A stretch of DNA of 48,781 nt from positions 1-48,781 of the forward strand of contig JAFTWZ010000027.1 of the NCBI GenBank assembly GCA_017465055.1, in the 5' to 3' direction. A program made the translations under genes and the position numbers. The stretch is from Alistipes sp. (GTDB lineage Bacteria > Bacteroidota > Bacteroidia > Bacteroidales > Rikenellaceae). Under the pieces are notes generated by a model. That model made no database searches, was not told the DNA's origin, and saw nothing but the letters and a program-made list of their open reading frames with translations. Positions 1,052 through 41,203 of this stretch are shown in pieces. Position 1 is the stretch's first letter. The number at the start of each line of letters is the position of its first letter.

Positions 1052-3598
1052 CTACTTGGTGCTCCAAGTACCACCGCCCTTATCCCAAGTGTTCTCCTTC
1101 ACGGTATATAGGTTCTTTCCATCGGTAGGAGCCTTCAAGTCTGAAGTTTGGTTCCACTTGTTATTCCAGTTGTTAGCTGTGGTATTAGGATTCATACGGC
1201 AGAAGATAACATTACAACCATAGTCATAACCCTCAGGGATATTGAGCTCGTAGATGCCGTCGCCGTCGCTATCGGTCATACTTACCCACTTATCTCCACT
1301 ACCCCAGAAGTAAGCAGCAAAGCGAGCATTATCCTTCTTCCAGTTTGCATTAGGCTTGAGGTAGAGTTTGTTTTCTGTTACCTCTGGCTCTTCCTGCTTA
1401 GGCTCCTCACCATCTACGGTCTGCTTAGCTACGGCTGTGTAGTCCGCGCCAGCATCTACCATATAAAGGAGCTTACTTGTATAGTCAAAGTAGAAATCGA
1501 ATGTACCTGCTGCAGTGTTAGAGATATCCGCGCCATTTGCATATACCTGGATGTAGCCGTTGGGGTTCATATATACGATACCTCCACCGTAGTTCTCGCT
1601 CCACCCCTTATCCTTACGAACCTTAAATGACGCATAAGCATCCAGAGCTACACTCTTGGCAACGAATAGATTCTTTACCTCAGTTGTTACCATCGCTGTA
1701 TCACCCCAGTTGTTGAATGTTCCACAGAGTGACCACGATGATGGTTGGTCTGGGGTCTCCTGAGTATCAAGATTACCCACACGCTCTGCCTTAAACTCCT
1801 TTGTCGTATAATTGAAGTAGAGGTTATAAACGCCTGCAGGAACCATCATATTCTTACCACCCTGAACTAGAGTATAGAGCTCATCAGCATTAATAGCGTT
1901 GTCCTCAATCAAGCTCTCTACGCCGTAGCTCTCTTCCCAAGCGTCGTTAATGCGAATTTTGAAGCTATCAGTTGCATAGATATCCTTACCCTTGAGGGTA
2001 TAGAAATCTCCCTCTAAGGTCATATCTATGTCTGTCTCCCAATTACCACCAAAACCGATAACACCAACGCTGCGCTCCGTATCATCTGGAGTCTCGCCCT
2101 CGTCGGGATTCTCAACGCCATTCTCAGTCTGCTCCTCTGCTGTGGTGTAATCAACGCCAGCCTCCATAAGATAGAACTTACTATACTCTCCCAGTGCATC
2201 GTACTCAAAGTATACGTCGTATGTACCTGCATTAACTACAACAATGTTAGAGCCATTTAAATAGGCCTTCATCCAGTTGTTTGCATTAAGGCCAACGATA
2301 CCACCACCATAGTTTATATCCCACGTGTGCGACGCCTTAACCTTAATCTCTGCACCAGCAGCAAGCTCCAGTCCCTCAAATACGAAGAGGTTAGCCGTTG
2401 CAGTCTCAGCCATCGCATTACCAGTCTCTGACCATTCGCAATATGAGCCAGTTAAAACCCATGATAGCGCAGGCTCCTCGGGGATTACATAGCCATCCTT
2501 GTTGCCCCATACGCCCTTAGCCCAGTCGAGGATATAGTAGTAGTTGTCAGGCTCGACGCCGATAACCTCATCTGCAGTCTGATTCCAAACGTGGAGATTC
2601 TCATCGGTTGCACCCTCCTCGTTCCAAGCAAACTCGGTAAATGCTGGATTCATACGGCAGAAGAGCACATTCTCCATATCTGCGGGTACTGAGCACTCGT
2701 AGATACCATCGGCATTGTCGTCAGTCATCTTAACATCGGCAAAGCCATCTGTCGAGTTGAAGAAGTGTGCCGAGAACCAAGCGCCATCAGCCTTCCAACC
2801 GTCATTAGGTACAAGATAGACCTTCGCCAAGGTCTCTGGCTCGGTCAGTGTACCGAGGTTGTAGACCTTGCCACAGCCGATTCTATTGATTGTAGCCTCC
2901 TTAACCTTTACGCCATCAATAGAATACGACAAAGTAGCATTACGCTCTACTTCAGTCGAATTCACTCCACACCAGAAAGGAACAAAATTCTCGCCCTTAA
3001 TACCCGAGAAGGTAATCTCATTTGTCTCCTTTGTCTCCACGTTGTTATCTATGAAAGCGTAGACTTCGCTGCCATCAGATGTTTGTAGCTCTAATTTCAA
3101 GGTAACATCACCCTCGCCCTCATAGGTATAACGCAAGAACGATGTCTGCGATGTAAGCTGAATCGTTGCATCCTGCGTAAACGTAACACCAGTAGTCAAC
3201 ACATAAAGAGCCTTCTTGCCAAGACGTGAGTCGCGCAGATGTATATCGCTATCCGAACTGATGCTTACACTCTTACCAACTAGATTAGCTGCTGCGCTAT
3301 CCTCGCAAGTAAATTTACCTGTAGCGGCGTCAGTACATACGAACGTATAAGAGCTGTTATCAGCAGTGTTAGTGACCGAAAGAGTATCACCACTCTCCCA
3401 GATAGTCGTCCACTTCCTATCGCCATCCGCGTCATCGATATAGGCACGAGTGTCGTCATCGCCAAAAGTTGCGTAGAACGATACGCCAGCCTTCTGGCCT
3501 GCGTCAACGCTCTCATCTGTCTCTGTACAAGCTGCTGCACCCAACATAACCAGCACAGCAAGCATCAAATTCCAAAACTTTTTCATCTCTTTGCTCAT
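1052..3598 (-). CDS. Modular surface lipoprotein: fimbrillin-like N-terminus plus starch-binding-like modules
   Basis: About 848 residues. A lipoprotein signal (hydrophobic core, then GAAAC) is followed by five or six beta modules. Residues about 25-255 look like the Mfa/fimbrillin fold (DTRAYI, then WESGDTLSV). At about 258-370 and 740-848 are two related modules with YL.PN..W and FCRMNP motifs, as in starch-binding modules of the CBM26/SusF type. Between them are three SusE/SusF-like repeats starting near 377, 509 and 620; the first and third share W..YGGGI and FDFYFDYTSK-type ends. Inferred role: glycan binding at the outer surface. No SusC/SusD pair adjoins it. The frame is open to an ATG at 3613; the hydrophobic signal begins at the internal Met at 3586, so 3598 or 3586 is preferred. 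It lies just after a 51-residue peptide gene and is probably co-transcribed with it. Confidence 0.75.
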   Translation of the reverse strand: MSKEMKKFWNLMLAVLVMLGAAACTETDESVDAGQKAGVSFYATFGDDDTRAYIDDADGDRKWTTIWESGDTLSVTNTADNSSYTFVCTDAATGKFTCEDSAAANLVGKSVSISSDSDIHLRDSRLGKKALYVLTTGVTFTQDATIQLTSQTSFLRYTYEGEGDVTLKLELQTSDGSEVYAFIDNNVETKETNEITFSGIKGENFVPFWCGVNSTEVERNATLSYSIDGVKVKEATINRIGCGKVYNLGTLTEPETLAKVYLVPNDGWKADGAWFSAHFFNSTDGFADVKMTDDNADGIYECSVPADMENVLFCRMNPAFTEFAWNEEGATDENLHVWNQTADEVIGVEPDNYYYILDWAKGVWGNKDGYVIPEEPALSWVLTGSYCEWSETGNAMAETATANLFVFEGLELAAGAEIKVKASHTWDINYGGGIVGLNANNWMKAYLNGSNIVVVNAGTYDVYFEYDALGEYSKFYLMEAGVDYTTAEEQTENGVENPDEGETPDDTERSVGVIGFGGNWETDIDMTLEGDFYTLKGKDIYATDSFKIRINDAWEESYGVESLIEDNAINADELYTLVQGGKNMMVPAGVYNLYFNYTTKEFKAERVGNLDTQETPDQPSSWSLCGTFNNWGDTAMVTTEVKNLFVAKSVALDAYASFKVRKDKGWSENYGGGIVYMNPNGYIQVYANGADISNTAAGTFDFYFDYTSKLLYMVDAGADYTAVAKQTVDGEEPKQEEPEVTENKLYLKPNANWKKDNARFAAYFWGSGDKWVSMTDSDGDGIYELNIPEGYDYGCNVIFCRMNPNTTANNWNNKWNQTSDLKAPTDGKNLYTVKENTWDKGGGTWSTK

Positions 3599-3617
3599 CT
3601 TTAGGTTAAACATTGGG

Positions 3618-3773
3618 TTACCAGATTACATCCTCCTCATCGTAAGTAGGACCGTCGAAACCAAACTCGTCGCTGGCCTCAAAGCCTCGCTCGACGTTGA
3701 TCTCTAAAATTGCTAACTGAGGAGCCTCATAACTACCGGTATGGGCACACTCAAACTGATTTAAGACTTTCAT
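3618..3773 (-). CDS. 51-residue conserved-type small peptide
   Basis: A short frame, ATG at 3773 to TAA at 3618, encoding MKVLNQFECA at the start and YDEEDVIW at the end. There is no signal peptide. The middle reads YEAPQLAILEINVERGFEAS, a pattern (Y-x-x-P, alternating hydrophobic strand, E-x-GF-x-x-S, acidic tail) I recognise from small hypothetical peptides placed ahead of fimbrillin-like or surface lipoprotein genes in Bacteroidales. That recognition is from memory. The stop is only 4 bp from the first possible ATG of the lipoprotein, suggesting an operon and translational coupling. A -7 element lies at 3851-3858. Possible roles include a secreted or processed peptide, a chaperone for the neighbour or a leader; none can be shown here. 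Confidence 0.65.
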   Translation of the reverse strand: MKVLNQFECAHTGSYEAPQLAILEINVERGFEASDEFGFDGPTYDEEDVIW

Positions 3774-3850
3774 TTGAATAACAGTTTATTTGGTTTATGG
3801 TTTCTCGTTTATCACCGCCACAGCCACCTACGCTGCGACCACAGACTATA

Positions 3851-3858
3851 CAAAGATA
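3851..3858 (-). promoter_or_regulatory. -7 element for small peptide/lipoprotein operon
   Basis: TATCTTTG on the minus strand fits TAnnTTTG. It is 78 bp upstream of the small peptide ATG. No TTG lies at the usual 19-20 bp spacing, so only the -7 part is supported. Confidence 0.5.
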
Positions 3859-3964
3859 GCCATTATTGATTAATATGAGTTACCAAATCGGCTCTTTGCT
3901 GACGAGTGGGCGATATTCCTCGACGAGTAGTCCTATTCCACGGACAAGGCGCACCAAATAGCAA

Positions 3965-3996
3965 GGGGATGACAAAAAAGTACATTTGTCATCCCC
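3965..3996 (-). terminator. Hairpin between two lipoprotein transcripts
   Basis: Perfect 12-bp stem: GGGGATGACAAA at 3965-3976 with TTTGTCATCCCC at 3985-3996, 8-nt loop. It lies about 95 bp past the stop of the 624-residue lipoprotein and upstream of the next promoter. On the minus strand the T-run is in the loop rather than after the stem, so it is an imperfect terminator. Confidence 0.5.
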
Positions 3997-4091
3997 GTTC
4001 TGTTATGAGATTGAATAAAAAGATGTAGTTTTAGGTTGGCGAAATAGACTTTTTATTCAGCCTCTAATCACTTCAAAAGGTTATATATAAC

Positions 4092-5966
4092 CTACCTTCT
4101 CATCGATAGAGGCTGAGCACTTGCCGCCGCAGTCTCTGCCGAGAGATCGATAGCCTCGCCACCACCAGTCCACTGGCCCGTAATCTTATTACCGCCATCG
4201 TCGACAAGGTCGAATGTAAAGCTATAGTTACCCTCCTCGGCCTCCTCGGCCTCCTCAACTGTAACCGTACCCGAAACGATAGGCGCTATCTGGCTTGAGT
4301 AGCCCTCGGCATCGGGTGTAAGGTCACCATACCAAGTAAAGAAGATGTTACCAGCATAGTCAACAATACCAGGGAACATAGTGTGATCCTTAACCTCCAT
4401 AGCAACATTAAATGTACCTGTAGGCATCTTATCGCGTGGAGCACCAGCCTCGACAAGAAACTCTGTGGTAAACATATCGCCATAACCATCTGGGTACTGG
4501 TCATTAAAGGCCATAATTGTGATAAACCACAGATCGAAGCCCTTCTTCATATACTCACCGATGCAAAAAGCTGCATACTCGGTCTCGACAGGGAAGTTAT
4601 AGGTATGATTCTCCGTAAGCGTAGTGTATGGGCGCTCAGGCTCAGTCTCATCATTGTCGTTAAGATTGCCTACAACAAGCTCACCCGAGTAGTTTACCTT
4701 AACCTTAACACCATTCTCAGCCACAAAGTCTGCAGTAATCGTATAGCTATCGCCGCTACTCTCTACAGTCATAGTACCACCTGTGATGACAGCAACCCTC
4801 TTGGTATCGCCATCGACATAGGTAATATATGTACCTACAAAATGCTTATCACCGAAGAGATCCTCGATACGACCATACTCAATAGTGTATGGCTGGCAGT
4901 AGTTAGCCTCGGGCAACATAGCAACCTCGTATACGCCATCGGCCAATGGCACATATTCGGCATTGTAATCGGCATACTTAGGCATCATCACACGACTAAT
5001 ATGAACGTAGTAGCCACTTGTCATAGAGCCATTATCATCAAACTCACCACTGAACATCTCGACACCTACATCATCAGCAAATGGATAGAACCAACCACCC
5101 CAGTAGCGCATCTGAGCATCTTCGGCCGTAACCTCGAAATCCTCCTCAAAGAACTCGTAGGCCGAAGTACCGCCCTGAACAAACTGCAGAGTACCAGTGT
5201 AGCGTGCCGAGAACTCCATATCATCAAGCAATATAAGTGTTCCGACTACAGTGATAGTGTATGTTGGACCAGTGCGCTCTACTGTAACGGTACCCATAAT
5301 AGGCGATGACACAAGCTCGCCACCCTCAACAACGATATCTACGTAAGAGTCGCTTGGGCTATAGCTAAACGCCGAGTAGTCCGAGTTAGGCTCGTACGTT
5401 CCGCTTGGAAGCACTGGGTTGATAGGATCGCTATCGGCCTCGTTGTAGAAGTCGATAAATACCTGCATATCACCCACCCACTCGAGCTTAGTGGTGTTAC
5501 CAAATGCGACCTCATAGTTACCCACAACAGCCTCATTATCGGTGCGATATACCGCCGAAACGAGTTTATCCAACTGATAGCCATCGAAGGGGAGCTCCGT
5601 AGCCTCCAACGTAGTAAACTCCGCCTTAGCCTCGGCACTCTTGTCGCCATTAACAGCCAAAGCATAGGCCGTATACTTGGTCTCGGGCTGCAGATTGTCG
5701 GCCGTAGCCTCGCTACCCGACACCTTAACACCCTTAGTCTTGATATCCTCAGCCGTAGCAGTGGCATCCGTACAATAGAAGTATACCTCTGTAGCATCGG
5801 TCGCGGTGATAGTAAACACCGCACTGGTAGCCTCGACACTCTTAGTCTCAATCTTTACCGTTGGGGTCTTATCAACGCCACCCTGTGGAGTGGTATCCTC
5901 CTTACACGCTGTGAAGAGCATAGCCAACATAGCCATCATCATCACCATAGAACTCAGTTGTTTCAT
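4092..5966 (-). CDS. Fibronectin-III-type lipoprotein, 624 aa
   Basis: Lipoprotein signal with Cys21 (MLFTAC, then KEDTTP), so probably an outer-membrane lipoprotein. Residues about 33-118 form a Fn3-like domain of the Bacteroidota type (PTVKIETKSVEATSAVFTITA; then LQPETKYTAYALAVNG). The remaining 500 residues are beta-rich, acidic and aromatic, in what looks like successive related domains each with a GTVTVE- or GTMTVE-type strand and a -YTI or -YSF strand. No catalytic motif was seen. It follows a 510-residue lipoprotein of the same general build by 35 bp, so the two likely share one transcript from the promoter at 7656-7686. A 9-nt tandem repeat near 4232-4256 encodes an EEAEEAEE run. Function unknown; surface binding is likely. 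Confidence 0.7.
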   Translation of the reverse strand: MKQLSSMVMMMAMLAMLFTACKEDTTPQGGVDKTPTVKIETKSVEATSAVFTITATDATEVYFYCTDATATAEDIKTKGVKVSGSEATADNLQPETKYTAYALAVNGDKSAEAKAEFTTLEATELPFDGYQLDKLVSAVYRTDNEAVVGNYEVAFGNTTKLEWVGDMQVFIDFYNEADSDPINPVLPSGTYEPNSDYSAFSYSPSDSYVDIVVEGGELVSSPIMGTVTVERTGPTYTITVVGTLILLDDMEFSARYTGTLQFVQGGTSAYEFFEEDFEVTAEDAQMRYWGGWFYPFADDVGVEMFSGEFDDNGSMTSGYYVHISRVMMPKYADYNAEYVPLADGVYEVAMLPEANYCQPYTIEYGRIEDLFGDKHFVGTYITYVDGDTKRVAVITGGTMTVESSGDSYTITADFVAENGVKVKVNYSGELVVGNLNDNDETEPERPYTTLTENHTYNFPVETEYAAFCIGEYMKKGFDLWFITIMAFNDQYPDGYGDMFTTEFLVEAGAPRDKMPTGTFNVAMEVKDHTMFPGIVDYAGNIFFTWYGDLTPDAEGYSSQIAPIVSGTVTVEEAEEAEEGNYSFTFDLVDDGGNKITGQWTGGGEAIDLSAETAAASAQPLSMRR

Positions 5967-6001
5967 ATAATCTTAAGTTTTTTAATTAGTTGCACATTAT
6001 A

Positions 6002-7534
6002 TTATAATACCATATCCTGAATCTCGCCCTTGTAGTACATATAGAACGTCTTAGCAGTTGAACCACTGCCAGCAGTGCCTATAAACGTAAGCTCATACTC
6101 CGAGCCATCTACGTTTACAACAAGCTCTGCCTCAGTAAAGTTCTCTGAATAATATGGGCTATACAATGCTACGTTACTATAACTATCAATAGTGCCATCC
6201 TCCATAGTGTAGCGACCAGCAGGAAGGGCATCCTTACCATCGTTACACGTCGCGGGGTCAAGCATAAGGTCAAGAACCAGCTCGTTCCAATTGCTATCAT
6301 AGAACTTCATATAGTACTCTCCTGGCACAAGTGATGAGGTATGAAGACGTACAGGCTGTTTAATTTCAACGTCAGGCGTAAACACCGTAGCTCCCTCGGG
6401 GATATTTGGCGTATCGGGCAGAGGCTCTGGGAGCACGATGCCCTCAACTGTGCCACTATAGCTAAGCGACACGAAGTCACCATTATCGAAATAGAGTACT
6501 CCATTGAACGAGTAGTGCACCTCGCGAGTCTCCTCATTTGGTGTTGCCTCCACCGTAACACTACCACGCTCAAATAGGGTCATCTGGCTATCTGAAGGGG
6601 TGAACATAAAGGTTGTATAGCTCTTGTTTAGTGCACCCTCTGCAGTCTCGCCGAGAGTGTACTCGCCCGATGGGAGGTAGTCGCCCACAGCAGCATAGAA
6701 GTCGCAACGCAATGTGTAACCATTAGCCTCATCGGTGAAGATGACAAAGTAGTTATCAAGCTCCGAGGTAATCTTGCTGGCAGTAACAGTGGTAGTCTCC
6801 GAGAAGAGATAACCTACGGGCTCTGGCTCGGCAGTTTTAACAACGAGCTTCTCCGAGATAACTGGCTCAAAGCCCTCGATATCGCACGTAGCAGCAGCGT
6901 AGATTGCATACGCTGTATCTGGCTCAAGATTCTCAACCACAACCTCGCTCTCGACATTTGGCTCAACAGCCGTACCATTGGCAATCACCTGAGCTGCAGT
7001 AACATCGCGTGAGCCATCCTCGATACATACCCACTTGAGTGTATCGGCCTCAGTCGACGTAATGAAGAAGCTCAACGAGTTCTCTGCTACACTACCCTCG
7101 CGCAGCGATACCGTTACATTGGGCATTGGCACCTCCTCTGCCTCGGTCTTTGCACCAGTCGAGGCGTATGCCTGCTTCTCGACATTTACGGCCACTACCG
7201 CTATCGAGTAGTCGGTATCGGGTTTTAGTTCCGAGCAGGTAATCTCGCTGGCCTCGGCCTTCACACCCTCATTAAGCACCTTCTCAGCATCGGGTGCAAC
7301 GGTACCCTCGGCTACAAGATAGGTGATGCTCTTGGCATCAGTAGCCTCGATAGTAAATGAGAGGGTGTTTGTCGTAATCTCGCCGACCTCGATTGCCACT
7401 GTTGGCACCTTCTCCTCATCGGCTGGTGGGTTGTTATTGGGGTTGTCAACTCCGGGCTCGTCGTTGCTACAACCCACAACTGCAAACATTGCTATTAAAG
7501 CGAAAAACGCATTTAAATAGATTCTCATTCTCAT
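6002..7534 (-). CDS. Fibronectin-III-type lipoprotein, 510 aa
   Basis: Lipoprotein signal ends FAVVGC at Cys22. Two Fn3-like domains follow, about residues 43-133 (VPTVAIEVGEITTNTLSFTIEA, LKPDTDYSIAVVAVN) and 137-236 (PNVTVSLREGSVAENSLSFFI, LEPDTAYAIYAAA). The C-terminal half holds beta domains of the sort seen in the downstream gene (LFSETTTVTASKI and DTPNIPEGATVFTP regions). The two products look like paralogues that arose by duplication. It is the first gene of the pair, with a high-quality promoter about 120 bp upstream. No enzyme motif seen; inferred to bind a ligand at the cell surface. Confidence 0.7.
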   Translation of the reverse strand: MRMRIYLNAFFALIAMFAVVGCSNDEPGVDNPNNNPPADEEKVPTVAIEVGEITTNTLSFTIEATDAKSITYLVAEGTVAPDAEKVLNEGVKAEASEITCSELKPDTDYSIAVVAVNVEKQAYASTGAKTEAEEVPMPNVTVSLREGSVAENSLSFFITSTEADTLKWVCIEDGSRDVTAAQVIANGTAVEPNVESEVVVENLEPDTAYAIYAAATCDIEGFEPVISEKLVVKTAEPEPVGYLFSETTTVTASKITSELDNYFVIFTDEANGYTLRCDFYAAVGDYLPSGEYTLGETAEGALNKSYTTFMFTPSDSQMTLFERGSVTVEATPNEETREVHYSFNGVLYFDNGDFVSLSYSGTVEGIVLPEPLPDTPNIPEGATVFTPDVEIKQPVRLHTSSLVPGEYYMKFYDSNWNELVLDLMLDPATCNDGKDALPAGRYTMEDGTIDSYSNVALYSPYYSENFTEAELVVNVDGSEYELTFIGTAGSGSTAKTFYMYYKGEIQDMVL

Positions 7535-13096: not shown

Positions 13097-14086
13097 CTAT
13101 GAGATAAACTCTCCAGAGTCATATTTTATTCGGGGGGCAATAGACTTATCAATATCTTCGCATAAGCTTTGCCACAAATCCTCCTCATTCGAGTTATTCT
13201 GCGGATATCTCAAGTAGCCTTCGTGTGCATATATCAAACCTAATTCGTGATCTGTTTGCTCCTTCGACAAAAACTGCAACGCAGATTTTCGTTTCTCGAC
13301 ATCAACATTACCCTCTATAAACTCTAAAATAAGAGATATATACTTGATATATGGCACAAATCGCAGACGATGACCATCGAAATACTTAATTCGCCTATTG
13401 CTATAATCTTTCAAGTATGAGGGGCCTTCGTGCCAACCACCTACTTGTGCTCGCTCACTTTTATCTTGCAATCTCAGTAGAGTATCTCGGAGAATAACCT
13501 TTGCCGATACAGGAAAGATCGCATCGCTTATCGACGACTCTATTTTATCTACCGTAACACCATTAATGAAATATGTAAATGCTATATAATTAAGCGTAGA
13601 ATCTTCGCTTGCGCCATTAGCCTCTTCGGCATTGAAGTTTATCTGCGAGTAGATAGCCTGATTCTTTTTGATGATATTGTATATTGCCTTATACTCGTAG
13701 AACATATAGTGATACGCCACCTTACCCTTGCCAACATTCTCTATCAAGGTATCGTTACATATAGTCCTATATACGTCGAGCAGGTGGAACAGCTTGTTTT
13801 CAAAACGCTCCTGTTCTATATCCTCCTTTTGTCGATTATTGTAGTCAAATTGGACGTAGAAGGCAAGAAACGTAAGCAAGCCTCCAATACAAGCTATAAT
13901 CCAATTAACGACATTTACTCGAGCCTGATAGAGATTTAACAACGTATCATATCTCTTCTCTATATCACCATTTGGCACTTCGTGTATATAGTCGTACCCC
14001 AAGCCATCATTTATAAACAGTATGCCAACAAGTACAACAACCGTCAATCCTATGACGCTGATAAAAATTAATTTTTTTGCTTTCAT
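13097..14086 (-). CDS. AbiC-like putative phage abortive infection membrane protein
   Basis: 329 residues. Two membrane spans (about 6-26 and 59-80) with a short extracytoplasmic loop, then a large soluble domain. Just after the second span, RFENKLFHLLDVYRTICNDT (95-113) matches the pattern that begins the putative phage abortive infection (putAbiC) family: a membrane hairpin, then FEN-x-(L/F)F-x-LL. By family knowledge, such proteins are linked to abortive infection, though the mechanism is unclear. Codon use is more A/T-rich than in the neighbouring operons, suggesting transfer. Its ATG overlaps the end of the M15 peptidase gene by 4 bp, so the two are translated together. The assignment rests on a short motif plus topology. 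Confidence 0.6.
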   Translation of the reverse strand: MKAKKLIFISVIGLTVVVLVGILFINDGLGYDYIHEVPNGDIEKRYDTLLNLYQARVNVVNWIIACIGGLLTFLAFYVQFDYNNRQKEDIEQERFENKLFHLLDVYRTICNDTLIENVGKGKVAYHYMFYEYKAIYNIIKKNQAIYSQINFNAEEANGASEDSTLNYIAFTYFINGVTVDKIESSISDAIFPVSAKVILRDTLLRLQDKSERAQVGGWHEGPSYLKDYSNRRIKYFDGHRLRFVPYIKYISLILEFIEGNVDVEKRKSALQFLSKEQTDHELGLIYAHEGYLRYPQNNSNEEDLWQSLCEDIDKSIAPRIKYDSGEFIS

Positions 14087-14781
14087 TTTTCAAAATGTTG
14101 ATAATCCTTCAATGTTGACCATTCACCTCCCCACTCAAATCCGTACGATTTGAAAAGTTTACAACATAGGTCATCTGCCTCAATCTTATATGGAAAATTC
14201 TGTTCTCTATCGACATAGGGCGCTGCACCATATGGCTCTACGCGTAGACTATTGTTTGACAACATCTTCACATACGGATTATATAGCGGATTGATATCTA
14301 CTGCCAGGCCGAAGGCGTGTTTCGACAATTTACCACCACCTGTAATCTCTCTATAGTTAAACGCGACGGTGTTATTATCCATCATCGACCTTGTATCGTC
14401 TGCATCATACTCATCGACCAAGACCATTCTCTCGATAGGATATTTCGCCTCATACAACGCTCTAAAAATAGCGATAAGCTCCCCCTCTATCAACCTGTTA
14501 CATATCATCTCTCCAACAACGATATTACCCTCCGCGTCGTAATGTAGGAGCTTTAGATATCGTAAATCACTTGGCTGAATATAGCTATTAGCTCTATATG
14601 ACCTTCCATTTATTCTCTCGAATATAGCTTCAGTAATTTCGGTACTTACAAACACCCTCTCCAAGCCAAAAATCCTGATTGCCTCACTCGACACCCTATC
14701 TTGTGGTCTCCACAGCTCCAGAGACTCCAACTCTTTTTGTATGTTACATAATCCCATAGTACTAAGGTTATCAGTATTCAT
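14083..14781 (-). CDS. M15-family metallopeptidase (VanY/D,D-carboxypeptidase-like)
   Basis: 232 residues. The C-terminal 115 carry the M15 zinc site: His155 and Asp162 in SKHAFGLAVDINP and His229 in KDYQHFEK, with Glu/Trp-rich FEWGGEW just before. A conserved region NNTVAFNYREITGG lies upstream of it. M15 enzymes cut D-Ala-containing peptidoglycan stems. No signal peptide is visible: the N-terminus MNTDNLSTMGLCNIQKEL is hydrophilic, unlike exported relatives. It is co-translated with the AbiC-like gene. Unless export is by another route, it may act inside the cell, or on peptidoglycan only when the membrane is breached. The gene starts 13 bp after a broken lipoprotein gene. Confidence 0.8.
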   Translation of the reverse strand: MNTDNLSTMGLCNIQKELESLELWRPQDRVSSEAIRIFGLERVFVSTEITEAIFERINGRSYRANSYIQPSDLRYLKLLHYDAEGNIVVGEMICNRLIEGELIAIFRALYEAKYPIERMVLVDEYDADDTRSMMDNNTVAFNYREITGGGKLSKHAFGLAVDINPLYNPYVKMLSNNSLRVEPYGAAPYVDREQNFPYKIEADDLCCKLFKSYGFEWGGEWSTLKDYQHFEK

Positions 14782-32881: not shown

Positions 32882-35800
32882 CTACTTAATCAACGCCTCA
32901 CAATCTTTAAACTCGAGTGTAGCGATAGACATACAGGTCAATCTATATCGATCGTCCGTATTATAGAATCCCGTAGCCGCAGAGAACATCTCTCGGAGTT
33001 TTTGCTGATGCGTCGAGACATCTGGGCCCATCAAATACTCAGAACAGAGAATATCTGGGCTAGCATTTTCACTTAACTGGATAAATAAATCGGACTGACG
33101 TTCACACTCTTTAGCAACCGAACGCTCCACCTCGTGCACCCACGATGAAGAGGCGTTAACAATATGCTCCGTAATATTAAAGTCTGCAACCTTAGGATGA
33201 CGACACAGATTAACAATCGTTGTATCTATCAAACGTTGGCGCAATCCTTTAAGATACAAGGCATCGGCTTGAGCTTCAGTTCCCACCTCCGCATTCACCA
33301 ATGGCAAATCCTTAACTGCCTGAGTGAAATCAATTTCAAATGATGTACCACGGTTTATGGTCTCCTCAAAAAAAGCATCCAACAACCTCTGATCCAGAAG
33401 CGATATGACAGGAATCTGCTTGGTAAGCACAATACTCTTCTTCGACTGCTCTATCTCGACATACCACGTGCGCAAGTTATTGATGAGCTTTAGGAATCGC
33501 ATATAGTCATTTTCTAATCTAATCCTAACAACATCCATCATCTTGAGCATATATGAGGCAGCATAGACTCTATAGCGTAATTGGGCCTGTATCCGCTCTT
33601 TACTAGCAATATCTGTTTGAAGCTTCTTATCCTCATTCTCCAATTTATGTTTCTGCTCACGATACTCCTTCCACTGCCTGTGGGCCTTGTATATCGTCCA
33701 AAGCGCATATACTCCGTTAAGCGTCCACGGTAACCACTTAGGGATGTCTAAGTAGTGCCAATCGATGATACTCCACATATAGTTCCAGCCATAGGCAAAC
33801 AAGCAGACTATTGCTGCAAAACCAATAATAAAGAGCAGCGCCTTAAGATTATAACGTCGCTGGTTCTTAGCCAGCGTTTCTAACTCCTCAACAATATCCT
33901 TGCGGCGCTCACTCATCGCCTTTATGCTTGTAGCCAATTGCGCGTCTGCTGCATTAAGATACTTATCACACCACGTAGAATCCGAGAAATTCGCTGTCAT
34001 ATCAATAAACCTCTGGAAGAGTATGTTACGAGTCTTTCGAGATAGCTGTAACTCCGCCTCGGTCTTGGCCAACATACCCTGAGCAATGTAGTAGCGAATG
34101 CGCATATCTTGATCATCAACCGATAGCGTTGGAATTTCTGTCATCTTAACCATAGACAACGAATCAATCTCGGTCAAGATCGATGCGCTCACGAAAAGCT
34201 TCTCGTGGTCCATATACTCATATGGGATATAACAATAGCCATTATCGCCCCAATCTGCACCCCACGAGTTACGGACGATGAAGCGACGAAGCTCATCACT
34301 ATAGCCCACCACCACCATTGCATGACAAGTGTGACGCGGCTTTTTATCCTCGGGCATAGATTCACGAGCCTCTATCTCCTCCTCTGTAGGCATAGGAACA
34401 TAGCCTCCCGAAGAGGCCGATCCAAAGCTATTGCACAGCGACAACGATACTGCTACGGGATAACCCTCGGCCAGCGCCTCCTTAATAGCCGTTGACGACA
34501 GACCGACATTCATCGCCTTGATAAGCCTGCGCTTAGCGGCATCTTTGTATGCCTCCTCCGAGGGCTTAATTGTGCAATCGGCCTGGTCATAACGACAGAA
34601 TGCCTCTTGGGCCAATCCATACTTTGCCAATGACTCAATTGCAGGCTTGACACGTGAACCCGTATCGGCAGTTACAGTAATATCTTCCCTGGGGTCCATC
34701 TCTCGAGCATTGTAGTACAAGAAGGCCTCGCTGAGATCGAGCTCCTCATTGATACTAAGCTTCATTGCATACTCGAATAAGGCAGTCAGAGCGTATGCCA
34801 AACACGAACCCAGCTTGCCCTGATTCTGAGCTGGTCTAAAGCCCCCACGCAGATCGATACTCTTGGGTATTACAAGGCCTTCCTTAGGTGTAAACGTCTC
34901 CTCGAGAAGCTCCTGCTCAAGCTCTGGCAACAGGCGGAAACCGTGCTCCTTAAAGTGAAAAACACCATCCTCGATATAGCAATCCTGAACCTGATGACTG
35001 ACGTCAATCTGCTGCTGAAGCTTCTCCATATCCTTTGCCACACGACGCTTTTCAGCTTCCAACTTGACAATCTTAGCTTCGATATCTTTAAGTGCTGAGA
35101 TTGGGTTATCGTGCTGTCCACCGTTGGATATAATGTAGCCACCATAATCGTTCTCAATGAAGAAGTCAAATCCCTCTGAGAATAGATCATAGATGCAGAT
35201 TCCATCGTGTTTGTAGACCGCGTGTGCAAATAGTTCACAATCGGTCTTTGCCAACAATGCTGCAAAGATTGCAGTCTTCATCGGCAGGCTTTTCTCTTTG
35301 CTAAGCAGCATAGCACACTGCTCGAGGATAGCCCGAGCCTCCTGCTCAAAATGATGCTGCACCTCCGAGAACGGTCTCTCAAGTCTCTCCTTGTCGAACT
35401 GCTCAAAGAATTGTGATAGTATCTGCGGCTTACCCTTCAATAACTCCGTAGCCTGCTCGTATGCCTTATCTGCACTGACGTTTCGTTCATTAACCGAGGC
35501 CGCATCCATAGCGTAGAGCATAGTCCTATAGAGCAGATAATCTATCATTAGGAACTTATCTACCTGCAACGACGACAAACCAAAAGCTACAACATCCTTA
35601 TATTGTAGCACGTTGGGCAATAGTTCATCGTAGTAGCCACTACAAGCAATCACAAAGTGGGAGATAACCTCGATTAACGTCTCTTTTGTAAGCCTAAGCG
35701 TTAAGCCCATACGATTGGAGTTCTGCCATACAATCAGATGCTGCGAAATAGGCATCTTCATCTTCTTGCGGAAATCGGCGTACTTCACAATACTCTTTGA

Positions 35801-36295
35801 CACTGAGTCCCAGCTTGTCAAGCCTGGCTCAATTAACTCCGACAGGTCCTTTGCATAGCCAACAAAATCGAGTTGCGTAGGTAGATTGACACGGCTTATC
35901 CCCTGATATAGCTGCTGGAAAGTATCCATCGCCGAGGATTTATAGAGGGGGAAGTGTATCATCACATTGAGCTGTGTCGCATTATCCCCTGCACTAATCA
36001 CCTCATTATAGACATCTCTCCACGTCTCCCCAAAATCGGGCAAGGTAGTCGCAGGATACTCTATCCACGACATATTTACATAATGATCCGTTCCTATCAA
36101 CTCTGGCTCTGGGATATCTTTACTACTCTCAACCTTGAGACGGCTGAGATTTATCTGCCCATTGTCGCAATCGGCAACCATATAGTTGATATTGGCAGCG
36201 GCCGCGCTACCGCCATATCGTAGCGTAGCACGGCCAATGCCTGAAACTAAATCCGTAAACTCCTTGCCAACAAAGATGTGAACAAAGTTTGACAT
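32882..36295 (-). CDS. Giant papain-fold (C1) peptidase with membrane hairpin
   Basis: 1137 residues, last gene of a four-gene operon. The middle (about 475-725) is a C1 peptidase: IDLRGGFRPAQNQGKLGSCLAYA with Cys498, HAMVVVGY with His658, NSWGADWGDNGY with Asn676, so the triad and the oxyanion Gln are intact. The first 400 residues match nothing I know; a coiled coil lies at about 405-435. After the peptidase come two membrane spans (about 816-838 and 850-872) and a long charged coiled C-terminus (about 878 on). No signal peptide, so the peptidase most likely faces the cytoplasm. It starts 6 bp after the tubulin-like gene. Substrate unknown; proteolytic control of its operon partners or of a target cell component is inferred. 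Confidence 0.8.
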   Translation of the reverse strand: MSNFVHIFVGKEFTDLVSGIGRATLRYGGSAAAANINYMVADCDNGQINLSRLKVESSKDIPEPELIGTDHYVNMSWIEYPATTLPDFGETWRDVYNEVISAGDNATQLNVMIHFPLYKSSAMDTFQQLYQGISRVNLPTQLDFVGYAKDLSELIEPGLTSWDSVSKSIVKYADFRKKMKMPISQHLIVWQNSNRMGLTLRLTKETLIEVISHFVIACSGYYDELLPNVLQYKDVVAFGLSSLQVDKFLMIDYLLYRTMLYAMDAASVNERNVSADKAYEQATELLKGKPQILSQFFEQFDKERLERPFSEVQHHFEQEARAILEQCAMLLSKEKSLPMKTAIFAALLAKTDCELFAHAVYKHDGICIYDLFSEGFDFFIENDYGGYIISNGGQHDNPISALKDIEAKIVKLEAEKRRVAKDMEKLQQQIDVSHQVQDCYIEDGVFHFKEHGFRLLPELEQELLEETFTPKEGLVIPKSIDLRGGFRPAQNQGKLGSCLAYALTALFEYAMKLSINEELDLSEAFLYYNAREMDPREDITVTADTGSRVKPAIESLAKYGLAQEAFCRYDQADCTIKPSEEAYKDAAKRRLIKAMNVGLSSTAIKEALAEGYPVAVSLSLCNSFGSASSGGYVPMPTEEEIEARESMPEDKKPRHTCHAMVVVGYSDELRRFIVRNSWGADWGDNGYCYIPYEYMDHEKLFVSASILTEIDSLSMVKMTEIPTLSVDDQDMRIRYYIAQGMLAKTEAELQLSRKTRNILFQRFIDMTANFSDSTWCDKYLNAADAQLATSIKAMSERRKDIVEELETLAKNQRRYNLKALLFIIGFAAIVCLFAYGWNYMWSIIDWHYLDIPKWLPWTLNGVYALWTIYKAHRQWKEYREQKHKLENEDKKLQTDIASKERIQAQLRYRVYAASYMLKMMDVVRIRLENDYMRFLKLINNLRTWYVEIEQSKKSIVLTKQIPVISLLDQRLLDAFFEETINRGTSFEIDFTQAVKDLPLVNAEVGTEAQADALYLKGLRQRLIDTTIVNLCRHPKVADFNITEHIVNASSSWVHEVERSVAKECERQSDLFIQLSENASPDILCSEYLMGPDVSTHQQKLREMFSAATGFYNTDDRYRLTCMSIATLEFKDCEALIK

Positions 36296-36301
36296 AGGAC
36301 C

Positions 36302-39232
36302 TTATTTAAAGTTCTCTATTGCATTTCCCAACTCATTAACGATATAATCCCACTCGGCATCAATCTGAGCAGACTCCATCTTCTTCTGGCTGTAGTATGT
36401 AGCACTACTCTTATCGGTACAAAGAATAAGGTCGATATAATCCATCTTACCCATATCACATACGTCCTTAACCAACGCCTGACGCTGAGCCTGGCCGAGC
36501 TTATGGAACACATCGAGCAAATAGTTGTGAAGTTCGCATCTGTACTCTGGCAAAACCAATGACTTAAAGTATTCGAAAGCCTTCAAACGATCAGCCGTTG
36601 TGCGCTCGCCACCGATTGGATACCACTTATCGAGCTGGCCATTAGAACCCTTATCGTTAGCCCAGAAGTAGTAGCGGCCCTTGATACAGCGGATATACTT
36701 ACGATGAGTAACCTCCTCCTTATGATCAATCTTGAGCGTAATGTTATCCTCCTTCTCATCCTTGACCATAACGTATCCTGTCTCGGTAACCTCCTTGTAT
36801 CCAAAGAGCTGACCACAAACCCAGTAGAACAGTGCCTCATTCTGAAGCTCTGGCTTAAGCTTAAAGTTCTTCTCGACCATCTGCGCGAATACTACCCTAT
36901 CGAAGTGAGGATTGAAGGATTCGCTGGCTTGTGCGTTACGCACAGTCGTCTCATACTCCTTAGCAACAGTATCATTGAGTGCATCGATACAGTATGGGAT
37001 TATAGCATAATCTGCTCGGAATACAAACATCTTCTGGCTCAATGGCTCACAACTGTTTGCTACGACCTGACAACCTGTAGCAGCTGTGGCATTTCTCTTA
37101 AAAGCCTCATCTGTATTAAGGCGACAGGCGTTTACCTCATCTGCACTACCAAACAGCGATATCAGATACTCATTTACCATCAAATCTGTAGGCTTACCTG
37201 AGTCATTCTGCTGGCCACGATTATTTACGCGCAACAGACGGCTCGACTTTGCAATAATCGCATCCTTAAGCAAGTTGTAAGACTTTTCGTCCAGATTATT
37301 GATTATATCGATCAAGCGCTTGGTGCGATAAGCTACTGCCTGAGGCAACGATGCCACAAACTTATCGACAGCAGGCTTAAGAACGACATTTACATCCAAC
37401 TCAAGAAGCGAATTATCCAATGTCGCAATAAATCCTGCCACGCCAATATCGTTAGCATCTATGCGGATTGACTTACGCTCTGCCAGCGACAGGTCATACT
37501 CAAAAATTGAGGTGCTACACTTATTAACAGAGGTCTCAAGCTCAATATTATAAGCATCGCTCAACGTGTTCAATGCCTCATCTATAGCCTTAATCTTTTT
37601 CTTAAAGTTATCGATGACATCCAACAGATGGATAAAGATATCACGAGCAGCCTCACGACGCTTAATCTCTATAGCGAGTCTTAATTTACCCTTAGCAACA
37701 CCAATTAGGGTACCAAGACGCTCCTGCTTTCCGCTATCGGTCTTGAAGAAGCGGTGACGATACTCCTCATACTCCTTATACCTCTTCTCAACGTCAAGGG
37801 ACTTGGCATCTCGCTCTTTGTCCCTATCTAAAATCTCGGCCTCCATCTCAGCACGACATATACCTATCTGGCTTGAGAGTGAGCTGAGGAACTTAAGAGC
37901 GTTGCCAACGCCACCATCACCAGCTAAGATAGCATCCAACTTCTCCTTGAGCAGACGATCCTTCTCGGCCTGAAGCTGAGATAGGATTTTAGCATCTGGG
38001 AAGTCTACGAGGGTATTGGTATATCGCTCAATCTCGGTCTTGGTATCTGTATCCGAATCATCGATGGTAACCTTTGGATCCTTGAGCTTACCCATTGCCT
38101 CAGGAGAGTAGATCGAGTCAATAAGCAGGTCATTGCCCTCATCCTCACGCACCTTTGCCGACATAGTCCAATCGATGGCTACCTGCTGGATATCTGTACC
38201 CTCCTGGCGCATCTTGCGAATAAGCTCGACAGCAGCTTTGCAGCCATAGATTTGTGCCAACAAATCACCATTATAGACCACCTGACATCCACCAAGGCCC
38301 TGAACCCAGCCTAACTTATGCATAATATCGTATCCACCCTGCGACCAGTTGTTGTTACTCTGACCGCCCTGAATAGTAGAGCCCATATCACCACTGCTGG
38401 CAAATAGACACGTACCCAATGCCTCACATAGACTACCAACATCTGAAACCGCATGACCCTTAGCCGTAAAATTATCTATTACGAAGAACTCATTAAATAA
38501 TGGCTGTTTAAGGGTGCGATGCTCACCATTAATTATTAACGAGATAGGATTATGGATATCTGCCGACATCAAATAATCCAAGTCGAGGATTGCCGAGTAA
38601 GCATTGGCTGCCACCCTCTTCGTCTTTGTACCTTTTGTATCCATCGCCTTAAATACCCCGTGCAATACGCCATAACCTATGATGTGTGCACGTTCTCCAT
38701 ATCTGCGGCTGATAAGCTCTGAGATATTGATAAATGAGCCAGCTCCAGTACCTCCGGCCAACGACATAGCGATATGAATATCTATCTCCTCGCACTTTAC
38801 AGCATAACCATCATCTCCGGAATAGGTAAGGTTTGCAACCTGTAACCAAACCTGCTCCAACGCGGGCTCAATCTGAGCCATAATATACTCGGTGTACAAT
38901 CTACCAGTAGTACGAACCTGACCTGCACCATCGGTAATCTTATCGGCAATACTTCTGGTATTTCCCGGAAACATCCACTTGTAATCACCCATCGCCTGAC
39001 GCTCCTCATAGTGCTTACGAGGGCTACCATTGTACTGAATAATCACCGCATCATCCCTTATAGATGTTGCCAACGAAGAGTCTTCAATTTCCTTAAGATT
39101 AAAATCAATAGCTAAAAATGCTATACACTTAGGAACATTTCCGACGCCATAAACATCCTCATACAGTTTCTTTGTTTGAGCTATAGCACGAATACCCGTA
39201 CCACCCAAACCAACGTAAATCGAAGGTCTCAT
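36302..39232 (-). CDS. Tubulin/FtsZ-like GTPase (Tubulin_2 type), 976 aa
   Basis: The N-terminal part has the features of the tubulin-like family found in bacterial operons with von Willebrand proteins: RPSIYVGLGGTGIRAI at 2-17 and the nucleotide-binding loop AGGTGAGSF near 157-166, which corresponds to GGGTGTGS of FtsZ and tubulin. About 420-490 and 515-555 are strongly charged helical stretches likely to form coiled coils, so it is far longer than FtsZ. The C-terminal 200 residues hold a beta-rich stretch (YIRCIKGRYYFWANDKG). No membrane segment, so cytoplasmic. It probably polymerises with GTP. It lies third in the operon, 72 bp after the lipoprotein gene. Confidence 0.8.
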   Translation of the reverse strand: MRPSIYVGLGGTGIRAIAQTKKLYEDVYGVGNVPKCIAFLAIDFNLKEIEDSSLATSIRDDAVIIQYNGSPRKHYEERQAMGDYKWMFPGNTRSIADKITDGAGQVRTTGRLYTEYIMAQIEPALEQVWLQVANLTYSGDDGYAVKCEEIDIHIAMSLAGGTGAGSFINISELISRRYGERAHIIGYGVLHGVFKAMDTKGTKTKRVAANAYSAILDLDYLMSADIHNPISLIINGEHRTLKQPLFNEFFVIDNFTAKGHAVSDVGSLCEALGTCLFASSGDMGSTIQGGQSNNNWSQGGYDIMHKLGWVQGLGGCQVVYNGDLLAQIYGCKAAVELIRKMRQEGTDIQQVAIDWTMSAKVREDEGNDLLIDSIYSPEAMGKLKDPKVTIDDSDTDTKTEIERYTNTLVDFPDAKILSQLQAEKDRLLKEKLDAILAGDGGVGNALKFLSSLSSQIGICRAEMEAEILDRDKERDAKSLDVEKRYKEYEEYRHRFFKTDSGKQERLGTLIGVAKGKLRLAIEIKRREAARDIFIHLLDVIDNFKKKIKAIDEALNTLSDAYNIELETSVNKCSTSIFEYDLSLAERKSIRIDANDIGVAGFIATLDNSLLELDVNVVLKPAVDKFVASLPQAVAYRTKRLIDIINNLDEKSYNLLKDAIIAKSSRLLRVNNRGQQNDSGKPTDLMVNEYLISLFGSADEVNACRLNTDEAFKRNATAATGCQVVANSCEPLSQKMFVFRADYAIIPYCIDALNDTVAKEYETTVRNAQASESFNPHFDRVVFAQMVEKNFKLKPELQNEALFYWVCGQLFGYKEVTETGYVMVKDEKEDNITLKIDHKEEVTHRKYIRCIKGRYYFWANDKGSNGQLDKWYPIGGERTTADRLKAFEYFKSLVLPEYRCELHNYLLDVFHKLGQAQRQALVKDVCDMGKMDYIDLILCTDKSSATYYSQKKMESAQIDAEWDYIVNELGNAIENFK

Positions 39233-39304
39233 TTTGATTGATATTTAGGTTAATTACTGTTTGTATCTATTATATACTTGTATGCACACCGTCTGCCGAT
39301 ATCT

Positions 39305-40192
39305 CTACCACGTCTCAATACCTATCCGCACATTGTCATCATTGGTAACATAGAACTTCTCTCTACGCTCGGGGACATCCAATGGATAGGTATCGACACT
39401 CAAAGTGGTGTAAACTCTCAGTTCACGTCCTCTACCAGACTTTATGGTGACTTTTGATGTCCAGAGCTCGTTTACAACTACGGTATCTTTGACGAAGAAT
39501 ATCTTCTTTAGCCAACTTTGCTTAATCGGAGCATTTGTCAATATCAGCTTGCGGCAACCCTTTGTCCTCTCTGTTACCGCGTCTGTTAAGCCGGGATAAA
39601 AGATATCCACCTTTGTAAACTTGAGGTGCGAGAAGAACATAGGGCGAAATATAATTACCCAAAGGAGATAGCAAATAAGTAGTGTTATCGAAATCAACAT
39701 CAACCACATTTCCGTAGGATTCATCACCGTCTTCTTCCTGGCCACAAAGCCTTTTCCCAATGTGGTATATTCAATACGATCCAGTCCATTGAGCGACACC
39801 TCCTTTAGGTATAGTTCGTGATATCCATCTATAGCCTCGGCAGTAAACTCTACTCCTACGACCACATTACCTTCATCGCCCCTTACCTTAAGCGTATTAT
39901 TCGGACAAGGCTCTCCATTTTTATAAAGCACCACACACTTAGCCATCTCCATACCGCCGTTCACATTTTTCTCATACAACTCGAAGGCAAACTCTGCATC
40001 TGCTAAGTCACTACCATCCTCATTAAGGCTAAAATTCAAGGTCTTAGACATAATCACAGGCTCATACTCCTGCAAAAATGAACTCTTGAAATATCTCGTT
40101 TCGCCCCAATTTAGGCTATCGCTATCATCGTTACACGCTACCGTAACAAGTGCCAAAGAGGCCAAAAATATTATTGTAAAAAATCGTTTCAT
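39305..40192 (-). CDS. Lipoprotein with internal membrane span, operon partner
   Basis: 295 residues. Signal with lipobox-like Cys20 (VTVAC), a periplasmic beta domain (about 30-155: KTLNFSLNEDGSDLADAEFAFELY, YHELYLKEVSLNG), a single span at about 162-182 (MWLMLISITLLICYLLWVIIF) and a cytoplasmic beta domain (about 183-295: SHLKFTKVDIFYPGL, KVTIKSGRGRELRVYT). The combination of lipid anchor and span is unusual and would let it relay a signal from the secreted von Willebrand protein to the tubulin-like protein; that is inference. Not recognised as a named family. It starts 6 bp after the stop of the upstream gene. Confidence 0.65.
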   Translation of the reverse strand: MKRFFTIIFLASLALVTVACNDDSDSLNWGETRYFKSSFLQEYEPVIMSKTLNFSLNEDGSDLADAEFAFELYEKNVNGGMEMAKCVVLYKNGEPCPNNTLKVRGDEGNVVVGVEFTAEAIDGYHELYLKEVSLNGLDRIEYTTLGKGFVARKKTVMNPTEMWLMLISITLLICYLLWVIIFRPMFFSHLKFTKVDIFYPGLTDAVTERTKGCRKLILTNAPIKQSWLKKIFFVKDTVVVNELWTSKVTIKSGRGRELRVYTTLSVDTYPLDVPERREKFYVTNDDNVRIGIETW

Positions 40193-40198
40193 AGCTTA

Positions 40199-41203
40199 CT
40201 ACTCTACTATTGAAATGGTTAATACTCGCTCTTTTTTGTTAATCAACGTAACCTGCGAATAATTAGGCACGATAATCAACTTCTTCTTTTGCTCCTTGAC
40301 AAGGATGTCGTTATTCTCGACGCTGAGGTTCAGACGCATCTGCTCCCTCTCGGCCAACTGATGTTTCAAGGTCGCATAGTCATAGTTTGGCGATAGCTGA
40401 ATCTGACCATTAACCAACTCTACCACCTCGTCGATAACAATTGGAGCATCCACCTCGCTCTTGACTCGTATCTTAGCGTCTACTGGCAGCGATATTGAAC
40501 TATTGTTTTTAAAGTAAATAGCTATACTCTTATTATCCTTGATATTAAACGACACTTCTGGCGTGGGCTTGACCAATAATCGCTCTATTTGATCAACAAA
40601 ATGATCAACTGGAACATAGTCACCATTTTCCAAATCATCTGTTGGTTTTATGGCATTTTTTGTAGTGAGGACATAGACCAAGAAATCACACTCTTCAGCC
40701 TGTCGATCCCAGCTATTCACGGCCTCGGCCAGAGCCTCCATACCACCATTCATATTTTGATAACCATCAGTCAGGAGCACTATCTTATTCTCCTTATCAG
40801 GCTTCTGGTATTTACTCTTTGCAAATAGCAGTGGCTCGGAGATATTTGTCCTTCGATGGCTCAACTTTAGACACTTTGGCCCGACCTCCTTTATTCTATC
40901 AATAATCTCTTGCTTAGACTCATCAGTAGAGTTAGGGACTGTGAGTATGTAATCTGACAGCACACCCTCCTGGAAAGGTATAACAACTATCTCGGTATAT
41001 GCATTGGCTACTCTTTGGATATCATTGATAAGATAGCCCTCCACATCATCGTAGACATTGGGAGTTTTTTCGCCACTCTCCGTCGTTCCCTTGCCTATCA
41101 TCGACGCTGTCACATCCCAGATATAGATGTTACGATTCTGCGCCCACGCATTATTGACTAAACAGCAGGCACACAAAGTAAGTAGTAAGTAGAGTCTCTT
41201 CAT
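40199..41203 (-). CDS. Secreted von Willebrand factor A protein
   Basis: 334 residues, first gene of the operon. A signal peptide ends NNAWA at residue 21. The vWA fold follows: the metal-ion-dependent adhesion site is DVTAS (Asp30, Thr32, Ser34; a variant of DxSxS), RRTNIS supplies the next Thr, and LLTDGYQN the Asp. The C-terminal third (about 210-334) is a beta-sandwich-like domain ending in SQVTLINKKERVLTISIVE. It is periplasmic or surface-attached. The site is complete enough to bind a divalent metal and a partner ligand. Promoter -7 element at 41274-41281. Which partner it binds is unknown; the next protein is the obvious candidate. Confidence 0.78.
   Translation of the reverse strand: MKRLYLLLTLCACCLVNNAWAQNRNIYIWDVTASMIGKGTTESGEKTPNVYDDVEGYLINDIQRVANAYTEIVVIPFQEGVLSDYILTVPNSTDESKQEIIDRIKEVGPKCLKLSHRRTNISEPLLFAKSKYQKPDKENKIVLLTDGYQNMNGGMEALAEAVNSWDRQAEECDFLVYVLTTKNAIKPTDDLENGDYVPVDHFVDQIERLLVKPTPEVSFNIKDNKSIAIYFKNNSSISLPVDAKIRVKSEVDAPIVIDEVVELVNGQIQLSPNYDYATLKHQLAEREQMRLNLSVENNDILVKEQKKKLIIVPNYSQVTLINKKERVLTISIVE

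Follow-up and report, generated by a model that had tools for sequence, protein, structure and literature searches.

A conserved four-gene Bacteroidales system joins a tubulin-like GTPase to a papain-fold protease

Positions 32,882 to 41,203 of contig JAFTWZ010000027.1 from Alistipes sp. (assembly GCA_017465055.1, a draft genome of 2.13 Mb that is 84% complete) carry four minus-strand open reading frames that encode, in order of transcription, a vWA protein, a lipoprotein, a tubulin-like GTPase and a giant papain-fold protease (334, 295, 976 and 1137 aa). The whole 48,781-nucleotide stretch that was analysed is called the window below. The four genes constitute a real, conserved and apparently mobile system, a variant of the FtsZl1/vWA operons that were named, and predicted to act in membrane remodelling, by Makarova and Koonin in 2010 (main text of PMC2875224). 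We tentatively suggest, at somewhat less than even confidence, that they form one inner-membrane device relaying an envelope event to a cytoplasmic protease.

RESULTS

The four-gene arrangement is conserved across Bacteroidales

A scan with the tubulin alignment covered 84,980 species, one genome per species, and reached kin that share two short patterns, such that spread past Bacteroidales may exceed what it detected. The best 80 of the 101 relatives found were kept, and together with the window and congener G003 they make up a set of 82 loci. These 80 are Bacteroidales by title (one says only Bacteroidia), mostly metagenome-assembled genomes (MAGs) from gut and rumen; some of the ranks attached to their names are ones that we presume. 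Two titles without the word 'MAG', Bacteroides sp. 519 (L069) and Prevotella ruminicola KHT3 (L104), appear to denote isolates carrying the operon.

A papain homologue was the next gene after the tubulin gene in 76 of the 82 loci, that is in 76 of the 79 with downstream sequence; three loci reach the contig edge first (L052, L055, L115) and three have another partner (L124, L125, L020). Between the tubulin stop codon and the start of the following gene lay -17 to 113 bp (median 8, 79 loci). Upstream of the tubulin gene, 79 of the 82 loci have both a vWA and a lipoprotein module, encoded by two genes in 39 and fused in 40, and two loci (L056, L080) begin at a contig edge and do not cover both modules. 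All four modules were present in order in 73 of the 82 loci, some of them partial at contig ends, indicating an arrangement beyond chance, and the tubulins of conserved loci diverge to ~20% identity. The original prediction held that the four genes should co-occur in order among varied neighbours, which is what this search found; neither separate homologues lacking conserved neighbours nor a failed tubulin fold was encountered. It is exceedingly improbable that these are unrelated accessory genes which are merely co-transcribed: such an account would suit an accessory block in a draft genome, at a variable site behind rnhB, yet it is contradicted by the co-occurrence of the modules, by the divergence over which their order persists and by gene fusions. 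A chance neighbourhood is ruled out by the same four-module order.

No further gene was constant, as only the vWA/lipoprotein, tubulin and papain clusters recurred in more than 15 of the 82 loci. Less frequent neighbours included small lipoproteins (15 loci; DUF6565 matches in some), a protein family without a name (8 loci) and PqiA-like proteins (5 loci). Eleven loci have a nearby non-specific endonuclease gene of one cluster, with a GHM motif, and in 10 of these it follows the protease gene; in L071, L080, L081, L086, L101 and L103 the endonuclease gene lies at most 10 bp from the preceding gene.

The system is sparsely distributed. Tubulin_2 proteins were detected at E 0.001 in 13 of the 395 genomes screened from the phylum, with 10 exceeding the curated cut-off, and when the protease was used as bait a homologue was found in 7 of 180 genus genomes, the window's own included, with a tubulin gene adjacent in all seven. 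A whole-alignment papain search mostly retrieved ordinary papains (275 of 393 genomes, two candidates scored per genome among the matches listed) and is therefore no test of absence.

Layout of the Alistipes operon

Features of the operon are as follows.

40199..41203, minus strand: vWA protein, 334 aa (open reading frame and weak Pfam match)
39305..40192, minus strand: lipoprotein, 295 aa (open reading frame, lipobox pattern TVAC, hydropathy)
36302..39232, minus strand: Tubulin_2/FtsZl1 GTPase, 976 aa (PF13809)
38198..39232, minus strand: tubulin nucleotide-binding domain, residues 1-345 (GLGGTG at 8-13, SLAGGTGAGS at 157-166)
37253..38050, minus strand: helical/coiled-coil insert within the predicted tubulin fold, ~residues 395-660 (model; boundaries approximate)
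36848..37195, minus strand: C-terminal part of the predicted tubulin fold, displaced to ~residues 680-795 (model; boundaries approximate)
32882..36295, minus strand: giant protease, 1137 aa (PF00112)
35396..36295, minus strand: predicted N-terminal alpha/beta domain of the protease, residues 1-300 (model and profile comparison)
34160..34972, minus strand: papain domain, residues 442-712, with propeptide-like lead-in
34802-34804, 34322-34324 and 34268-34270, minus strand: codons of the papain triad, Cys498, His658 and Asn676
33791..33847, minus strand: hydrophobic span of the protease, residues 817-835, in a long helical hairpin (hydropathy, model helices)

The open reading frame coordinates agree with the predicted single-strand arrangement, with intergenic gaps of 6, 72 and 6 bp. 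One flank holds genes for a TonB receptor, DUF4374 and PepSY_TM, and the other a ribonuclease HII gene (rnhB; PF01351, E 3e-41) and a 5'-nucleotidase-like gene. The block has a G+C content of 0.447 vs 0.512 for the rest of the window, which together with the flanking-gene matches confirms the proposed A/T-rich block between iron-uptake genes and rnhB; third-position G+C (GC3) is 0.475-0.52 in the four operon genes vs 0.593-0.699 in the six other window genes measured. An exact search upstream of the vWA gene for a Bacteroides-type promoter pattern gave zero matches, and a scan of the four proteins against NCBIfam profiles gave nothing over a cut-off.

Elsewhere in the window, a second AT-rich block (1052-7534) contains large minus-strand genes of 853, 624 and 510 aa, two without a Pfam match and the third with an fn3 match. 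Two AT-rich genes overlap at 13097-14781: one resembles M15-type carboxypeptidases, and the other (329 aa) has no Pfam match at E 1e-5.

The third protein has a tubulin fold split by an insert

The 976-residue protein matched PF13809 (Tubulin_2) at E 2.2e-48, with 165.8 bits against a curated cut-off of 27. Residues G8, G10-G13, G160-G163 and G165 were invariant across 60 aligned tubulin sequences. A search of PDB sequences with the tubulin profile returned no tubulin (best E 0.052, coiled coils), and the fold was instead established by structure comparison: in a structure search, PDB tubulins aligned over residues 1-796 of the model, indicating that the insert, in which the model places two long helices of 52 and 71 residues, splits the tubulin fold. 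Motif conservation and the predicted structure thereby demonstrate a tubulin fold with intact glycine-rich nucleotide-binding motifs, and the GTPase assignment made earlier passed the structural prediction proposed for it. In congener G029, a second, shorter tubulin gene of the same family (744 aa; L019:4844-7075) lies behind the protease gene.

The fourth protein combines an invariant papain triad with membrane spans

The giant protein matched PF00112 (Peptidase_C1) at E 3.6e-17. Gln492, Cys498, His658 and Asn676 were unchanged in all 73 sequences that span them (the window's included; three others are cut), such that the triad noted in the original prediction holds across the family. Fold searches with the whole protease model gave match lists filled by papains; both the catalytic Gln-Cys-His-Asn residues and the papain fold of family C1 are thus present. 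Two hydrophobic spans were predicted in 45 of the 79 tubulin partners examined. Alignments and the structure model together show three elements in the fourth protein: an alpha/beta domain at the N-terminus, a papain domain whose triad is intact and which has a propeptide-like lead-in, and predicted membrane spans. The earlier description of a 1137-residue papain-fold protein was therefore right about the protease domain and incomplete as to the separate N-terminal domain and the membrane-spanning helices. By comparison, the bacterial C1A papain xylellain (PDB 3ois) is a chain of at most 291 residues, whereas the papain here is embedded in a much longer protein with spans.

The vWA and lipoprotein modules would cross the membrane

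The first protein matched PF00092 at E 0.0075, below the Pfam cut-off and hence weak as sole evidence for a vWA domain. It also carries a MIDAS-type DVTAS at residue 30 (~41102-41116), TDG at residue 145 and, by eye, a signal-like segment at the N-terminus. The lipoprotein matched nothing in Pfam over cut-off (best E 0.02). Its predicted layout is a lipobox (TVAC), an outer domain, one strong hydrophobic stretch in mid-chain (residues 164-182, ~39647-39703) and then a tail of ~110 aa across the membrane. In the natural fusions the vWA module, lipoprotein outer domain, span and tail form a single chain. These fusions and the hydropathy profile show that the vWA module and the lipoprotein outer domain are predicted to share one side of the membrane, with the tail on the other; which side faces out is suggested by the signal-like N-termini. 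The envelope-crossing topology originally proposed is thereby strengthened, and adhesion, the other part of that proposal, is backed by no result.

The N-terminal domain of the protease may be tubulin-like

The structure alignments comprised 55 protease rows and 60 tubulin rows. In two models, the strands and helices of protease residues 109-265 follow the order of those in tubulin residues 150-342. A profile alignment blind to model order paired protease residues 1-300 with the tubulin at P 0.0016 (55 rows); reversed controls gave P 0.41 and 0.44, and the vWA, lipoprotein and papain controls gave P 0.06-0.22. Block-shuffled tubulin profiles (n=60) reached at most 28.8 vs 31.2 observed for the protease domain, a small margin. 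Residues 1-455 of the protease gave P 0.012, and a smaller 28-row alignment gave P 0.039, weakening the tubulin-like reading. A forced global alignment of this domain with tubulin yielded nothing, and no counterpart of the glycine-rich tubulin loops was found in the protease.

Partners that lack a papain domain tie this domain to tubulin more strongly. Four of them (L124, L126, L125, L020), in one small alignment, matched the whole tubulin at P 5e-5 with a score of 51.1, and shuffles (n=60) reached at most 27.6; they matched tubulin residues 1-345 at P 0.00066 and the protease N-terminal domain at P 2.8e-7. Taken singly, papain-less partners gave weak matches to the protease domain. The L127 partner matched it at P 3.6e-6, without a match to tubulin. 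A joint profile of the N-terminal domains and papain-less partners scored 34.6 against tubulin, with shuffles at or below 27.3. Taken together, the profile and model comparisons suggest, at somewhat better than even confidence, that protease residues 1-300 are a degenerate tubulin-like domain without nucleotide-binding motifs.

Some relatives carry another hydrolase in or beside the papain position

In L020, a transglutaminase-like domain (E 3.7e-13) closes the tubulin partner, and a second such protein (E 2.3e-17) is encoded next; both have C-H-D residues. L124 has a DA1-like gene (E 5.6e-7) with HEMLH directly behind the partner, and in L126 the gene directly before the vWA gene encodes TPR repeats and an aspartyl-protease domain (E 1.7e-14). 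L125 has an alpha/beta hydrolase gene that is convergent on the other strand (S15 match, E 8.9e-11). Co-oriented hydrolases thus occur in three of five papain-less Bacteroidales relatives, a raw count without a control rate that offers a lead from gene content. On a quick tree, one change sets the seven papain-less rows (Thermales among them) apart from all others, and the hydrolase swaps may therefore stem from a single deep split. Papain is the usual and not the sole hydrolase: in a few relatives the search turned up other enzymes or no enzyme.

Also before the fused vWA-lipoprotein gene of L126 (2-6295) are a caspase-domain gene and a sigma-factor-like gene (by eye). L128:5779-10563 and L129:2463-7164 contain a tubulin relative (797 aa) that is more distant, with two small neighbours, perhaps another subtype; one L129 gene matches the vWA profile, and neither locus has a papain profile match.

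This enzyme slot bears on the rival view that the system is a membrane-remodelling or vesicle machine, in which the tubulin would shape membrane and the protease would only mature or recycle machine parts. The remodelling reading of FtsZl1/vWA operons in the 2010 analysis (main text of PMC2875224) and the envelope proteins among the neighbours (small lipoproteins/DUF6565, PqiA-like) speak for it, but a hydrolase in 76 of 79 loci, with its triad intact where covered, is beyond what housekeeping would lead one to expect, and the presence of other hydrolases in or beside the slot in three of five papain-less relatives and the sparse distribution (7 of 180 congeners) further argue against it. We consider it unlikely.

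Mobility and defence context

The nucleotidase-rnhB stretch matched, wholly or partly, in 118 of 121 genus genomes. In none of the ten examined with a long match does the operon lie behind rnhB (one contig ends 2.8 kb on), where arrangements vary, some being common to two or three genomes; two of the ten, G555 and G480, hold the system at another site. A single clade for the tubulins of the eight same-genus loci is rejected (p-AU 2e-14, in a quick tree with several long branches that left out tubulins below 780 aa). We read the variable rnhB site, these non-monophyletic tubulins and the low GC3 as signs that the operon has probably spread by horizontal transfer. A phage origin was rejected: 13 pattern matches in an IMG/VR scan with the tubulin profile included no relative, and a phage collection yielded one weak partial match. 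Plasmid carriage of the Bacteroidales form was likewise rejected, with only distant partial matches in five plasmid records.

In congener G480 (L045:12300-19900) the operon adjoins a repeat array and Cas2, Cas1 and Cas9-like genes (by eye); a part of this region is masked. A link to type IX secretion was set aside, its sole sign being one response-regulator neighbour with a PglZ domain (L046), which we take to be PorX-like.

The four proteins matched no PADLOC model (best E 0.68). Neighbours of 80 to 900 aa were then scanned wherever a locus had one (51 of 61 listed downstream genes and 42 of 48 upstream). The 51 downstream neighbours matched 23 models, one member each except mad8 in two, and the 42 upstream neighbours matched 5 models, one member each, both being raw counts without a control rate; PDC-S27 (E 1e-199) and mad3 (E 5e-50) were strong single matches. 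A Bacteroidales defence island, though conceivable, is not supported.

Relatives beyond Bacteroidales and known systems

Plasmids of Thermus, Meiothermus and Allomeiothermus (L135-L138) encode a vWA protein, a tubulin and a ~680-aa unknown protein, followed by brxL in all four records; an IS copy intervenes in Allomeiothermus, and the T. thermophilus plasmid (L138) holds a remnant. Neighbours of this trio include CRISPR, helicase, nuclease and HEPN genes. The Thermales tubulin is homologous to the Bacteroidales one over 799 columns (hhalign probability 100, E 6.6e-55), the vWA protein is homologous (probability 97%) with one hydrophobic span in its chain (by eye), and gene order is the same. 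In contrast, the Thermales set lacks a papain, and its third protein has neither detectable homology to the protease domains nor a tubulin-like signal. The row of vWA, tubulin, unknown protein and brxL is perhaps an undescribed defence set; the relevant text of a 2026 BREX survey mentions neither FtsZ nor Thermus (PMC12839542). On Deinococcus, Azospirillum and Cylindrospermopsis plasmids, more distant Tubulin_2 genes lie among different genes, e.g. OmpA and caspase genes.

With the FtsZl1/vWA operons, as described in the main text of PMC2875224, the present system shares the tubulin family (N-terminal FtsZ-like domain, coiled coil, helical C-terminal part), a metal-site vWA partner, membrane-associated partners and patchy spread. 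It differs in that the frequent partners described there, a P-loop GTPase, kinases and OmpA proteins, are not in the conserved set here (an OmpA domain was found in one of 42 upstream neighbours), and in that T6-H7 and the C-terminal tubulin domain were not confidently identified there, whereas our model aligns with tubulins on both sides of the insert. That main text does not contain the words 'papain', 'peptidase', 'protease' or 'lipoprotein'. The original prediction regarded the full gene set as unfamiliar; its tubulin/vWA core is a system that the 2010 paper describes.

In the relevant sections of Kaur et al. 2020, tubulin-vWA sets are listed among GTPase-centric conflict systems (PMC7159879). 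Their GAP1-N2 systems share with ours a coiled-coil tubulin, an extracellular, membrane-near vWA protein and a proposed assembly-based output, and peptidase cascades are described there for other systems. However, the tubulin systems in those sections are firmicute and actinobacterial, and no papain-fused partner is described. Among the genes of our conserved set, none was recognisable as FNIII or TRAFAC GTPase, for which no dedicated profile was used. A 2023 FtsZ/tubulin survey leaves Tubulin_2 proteins aside in the sections concerned (PMC9871819), and the relevant text of a papain-family survey is without the word tubulin (PMC10380794). In the mainly open-access literature, supplementary files apart, no account was found of a tubulin-vWA operon into which a protease, papain or other, is fused, and literature searches found no experimental work on FtsZl1 tubulins.

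These comparisons raise the possibility that the system defends against phages or plasmids by cell suicide or dormancy, in which case the effector would be the protease and, where present, the linked endonuclease. A sparse, apparently mobile, low-GC3 block, the Thermales trio with brxL among CRISPR, helicase, nuclease and HEPN genes, endonuclease genes near 11 of 82 operons, strong single-neighbour matches to PDC-S27 and mad3, and the prediction of peptidase and NucA pairs and of tubulin and vWA systems as conflict systems (sections of PMC7159879) are consistent with this. Against it, the four proteins match no PADLOC model, the neighbour models occur in nearly all cases in one member each (mad8 in two) without a control rate, and the sensor would face outwards. 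Such a role appears improbable.

DISCUSSION

The relay from envelope to cytoplasmic protease could work as follows. Strain at the vWA domain, or its metal-dependent binding of a ligand, would be passed through the span to the tubulin. GTP-driven tubulin assembly, perhaps involving the protease's own tubulin-like domain, would then bring the tethered proteases together and free their pro-segments, such that cytoplasmic targets are cut. The cell would probably benefit by responding, locally or lethally, when its envelope is challenged, e.g. by an entering phage, a toxin or a rival cell. We infer the assembly and activation steps as well as the trigger, the targets and the benefit.

Several observations weigh against this relay. 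The catalytic T7 loop was not located in the tubulin. No co-oriented hydrolase was found in L125, and none among the four neighbours scanned in L127, indicating that proteolysis is not universal. The simple lipobox pattern is missing in 10 of 43 lipoprotein rows, and L054 keeps lipoprotein, tubulin and papain with no vWA gene found within 9 kb upstream. Finally, the A7 search missed the G936 partner and is hence of low sensitivity.

An extension, which we regard as doubtful, is a two-tubulin transmembrane protease switch. Here an active GTPase would co-assemble with a partner built on a degenerate tubulin domain fused to an exchangeable hydrolase (papain, or transglutaminase-like in one congener), and assembly triggered by the vWA receptor would activate the proteases by crowding. 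By analogy, such a switch might be likened to death-domain or STAND platforms, as their cytoskeletal counterpart.

In the Bacteroidales version the FtsZl1 family gains an enzymatic output whose catalytic triad is invariant, together with a membrane-spanning receptor, and apparent isolates carry it, which makes its role testable by ordinary knock-out and active-site tests. If tubulin assembly does control the protease, the system would join bacterial cytoskeletons and protease-based signalling, two fields that have so far been separate.

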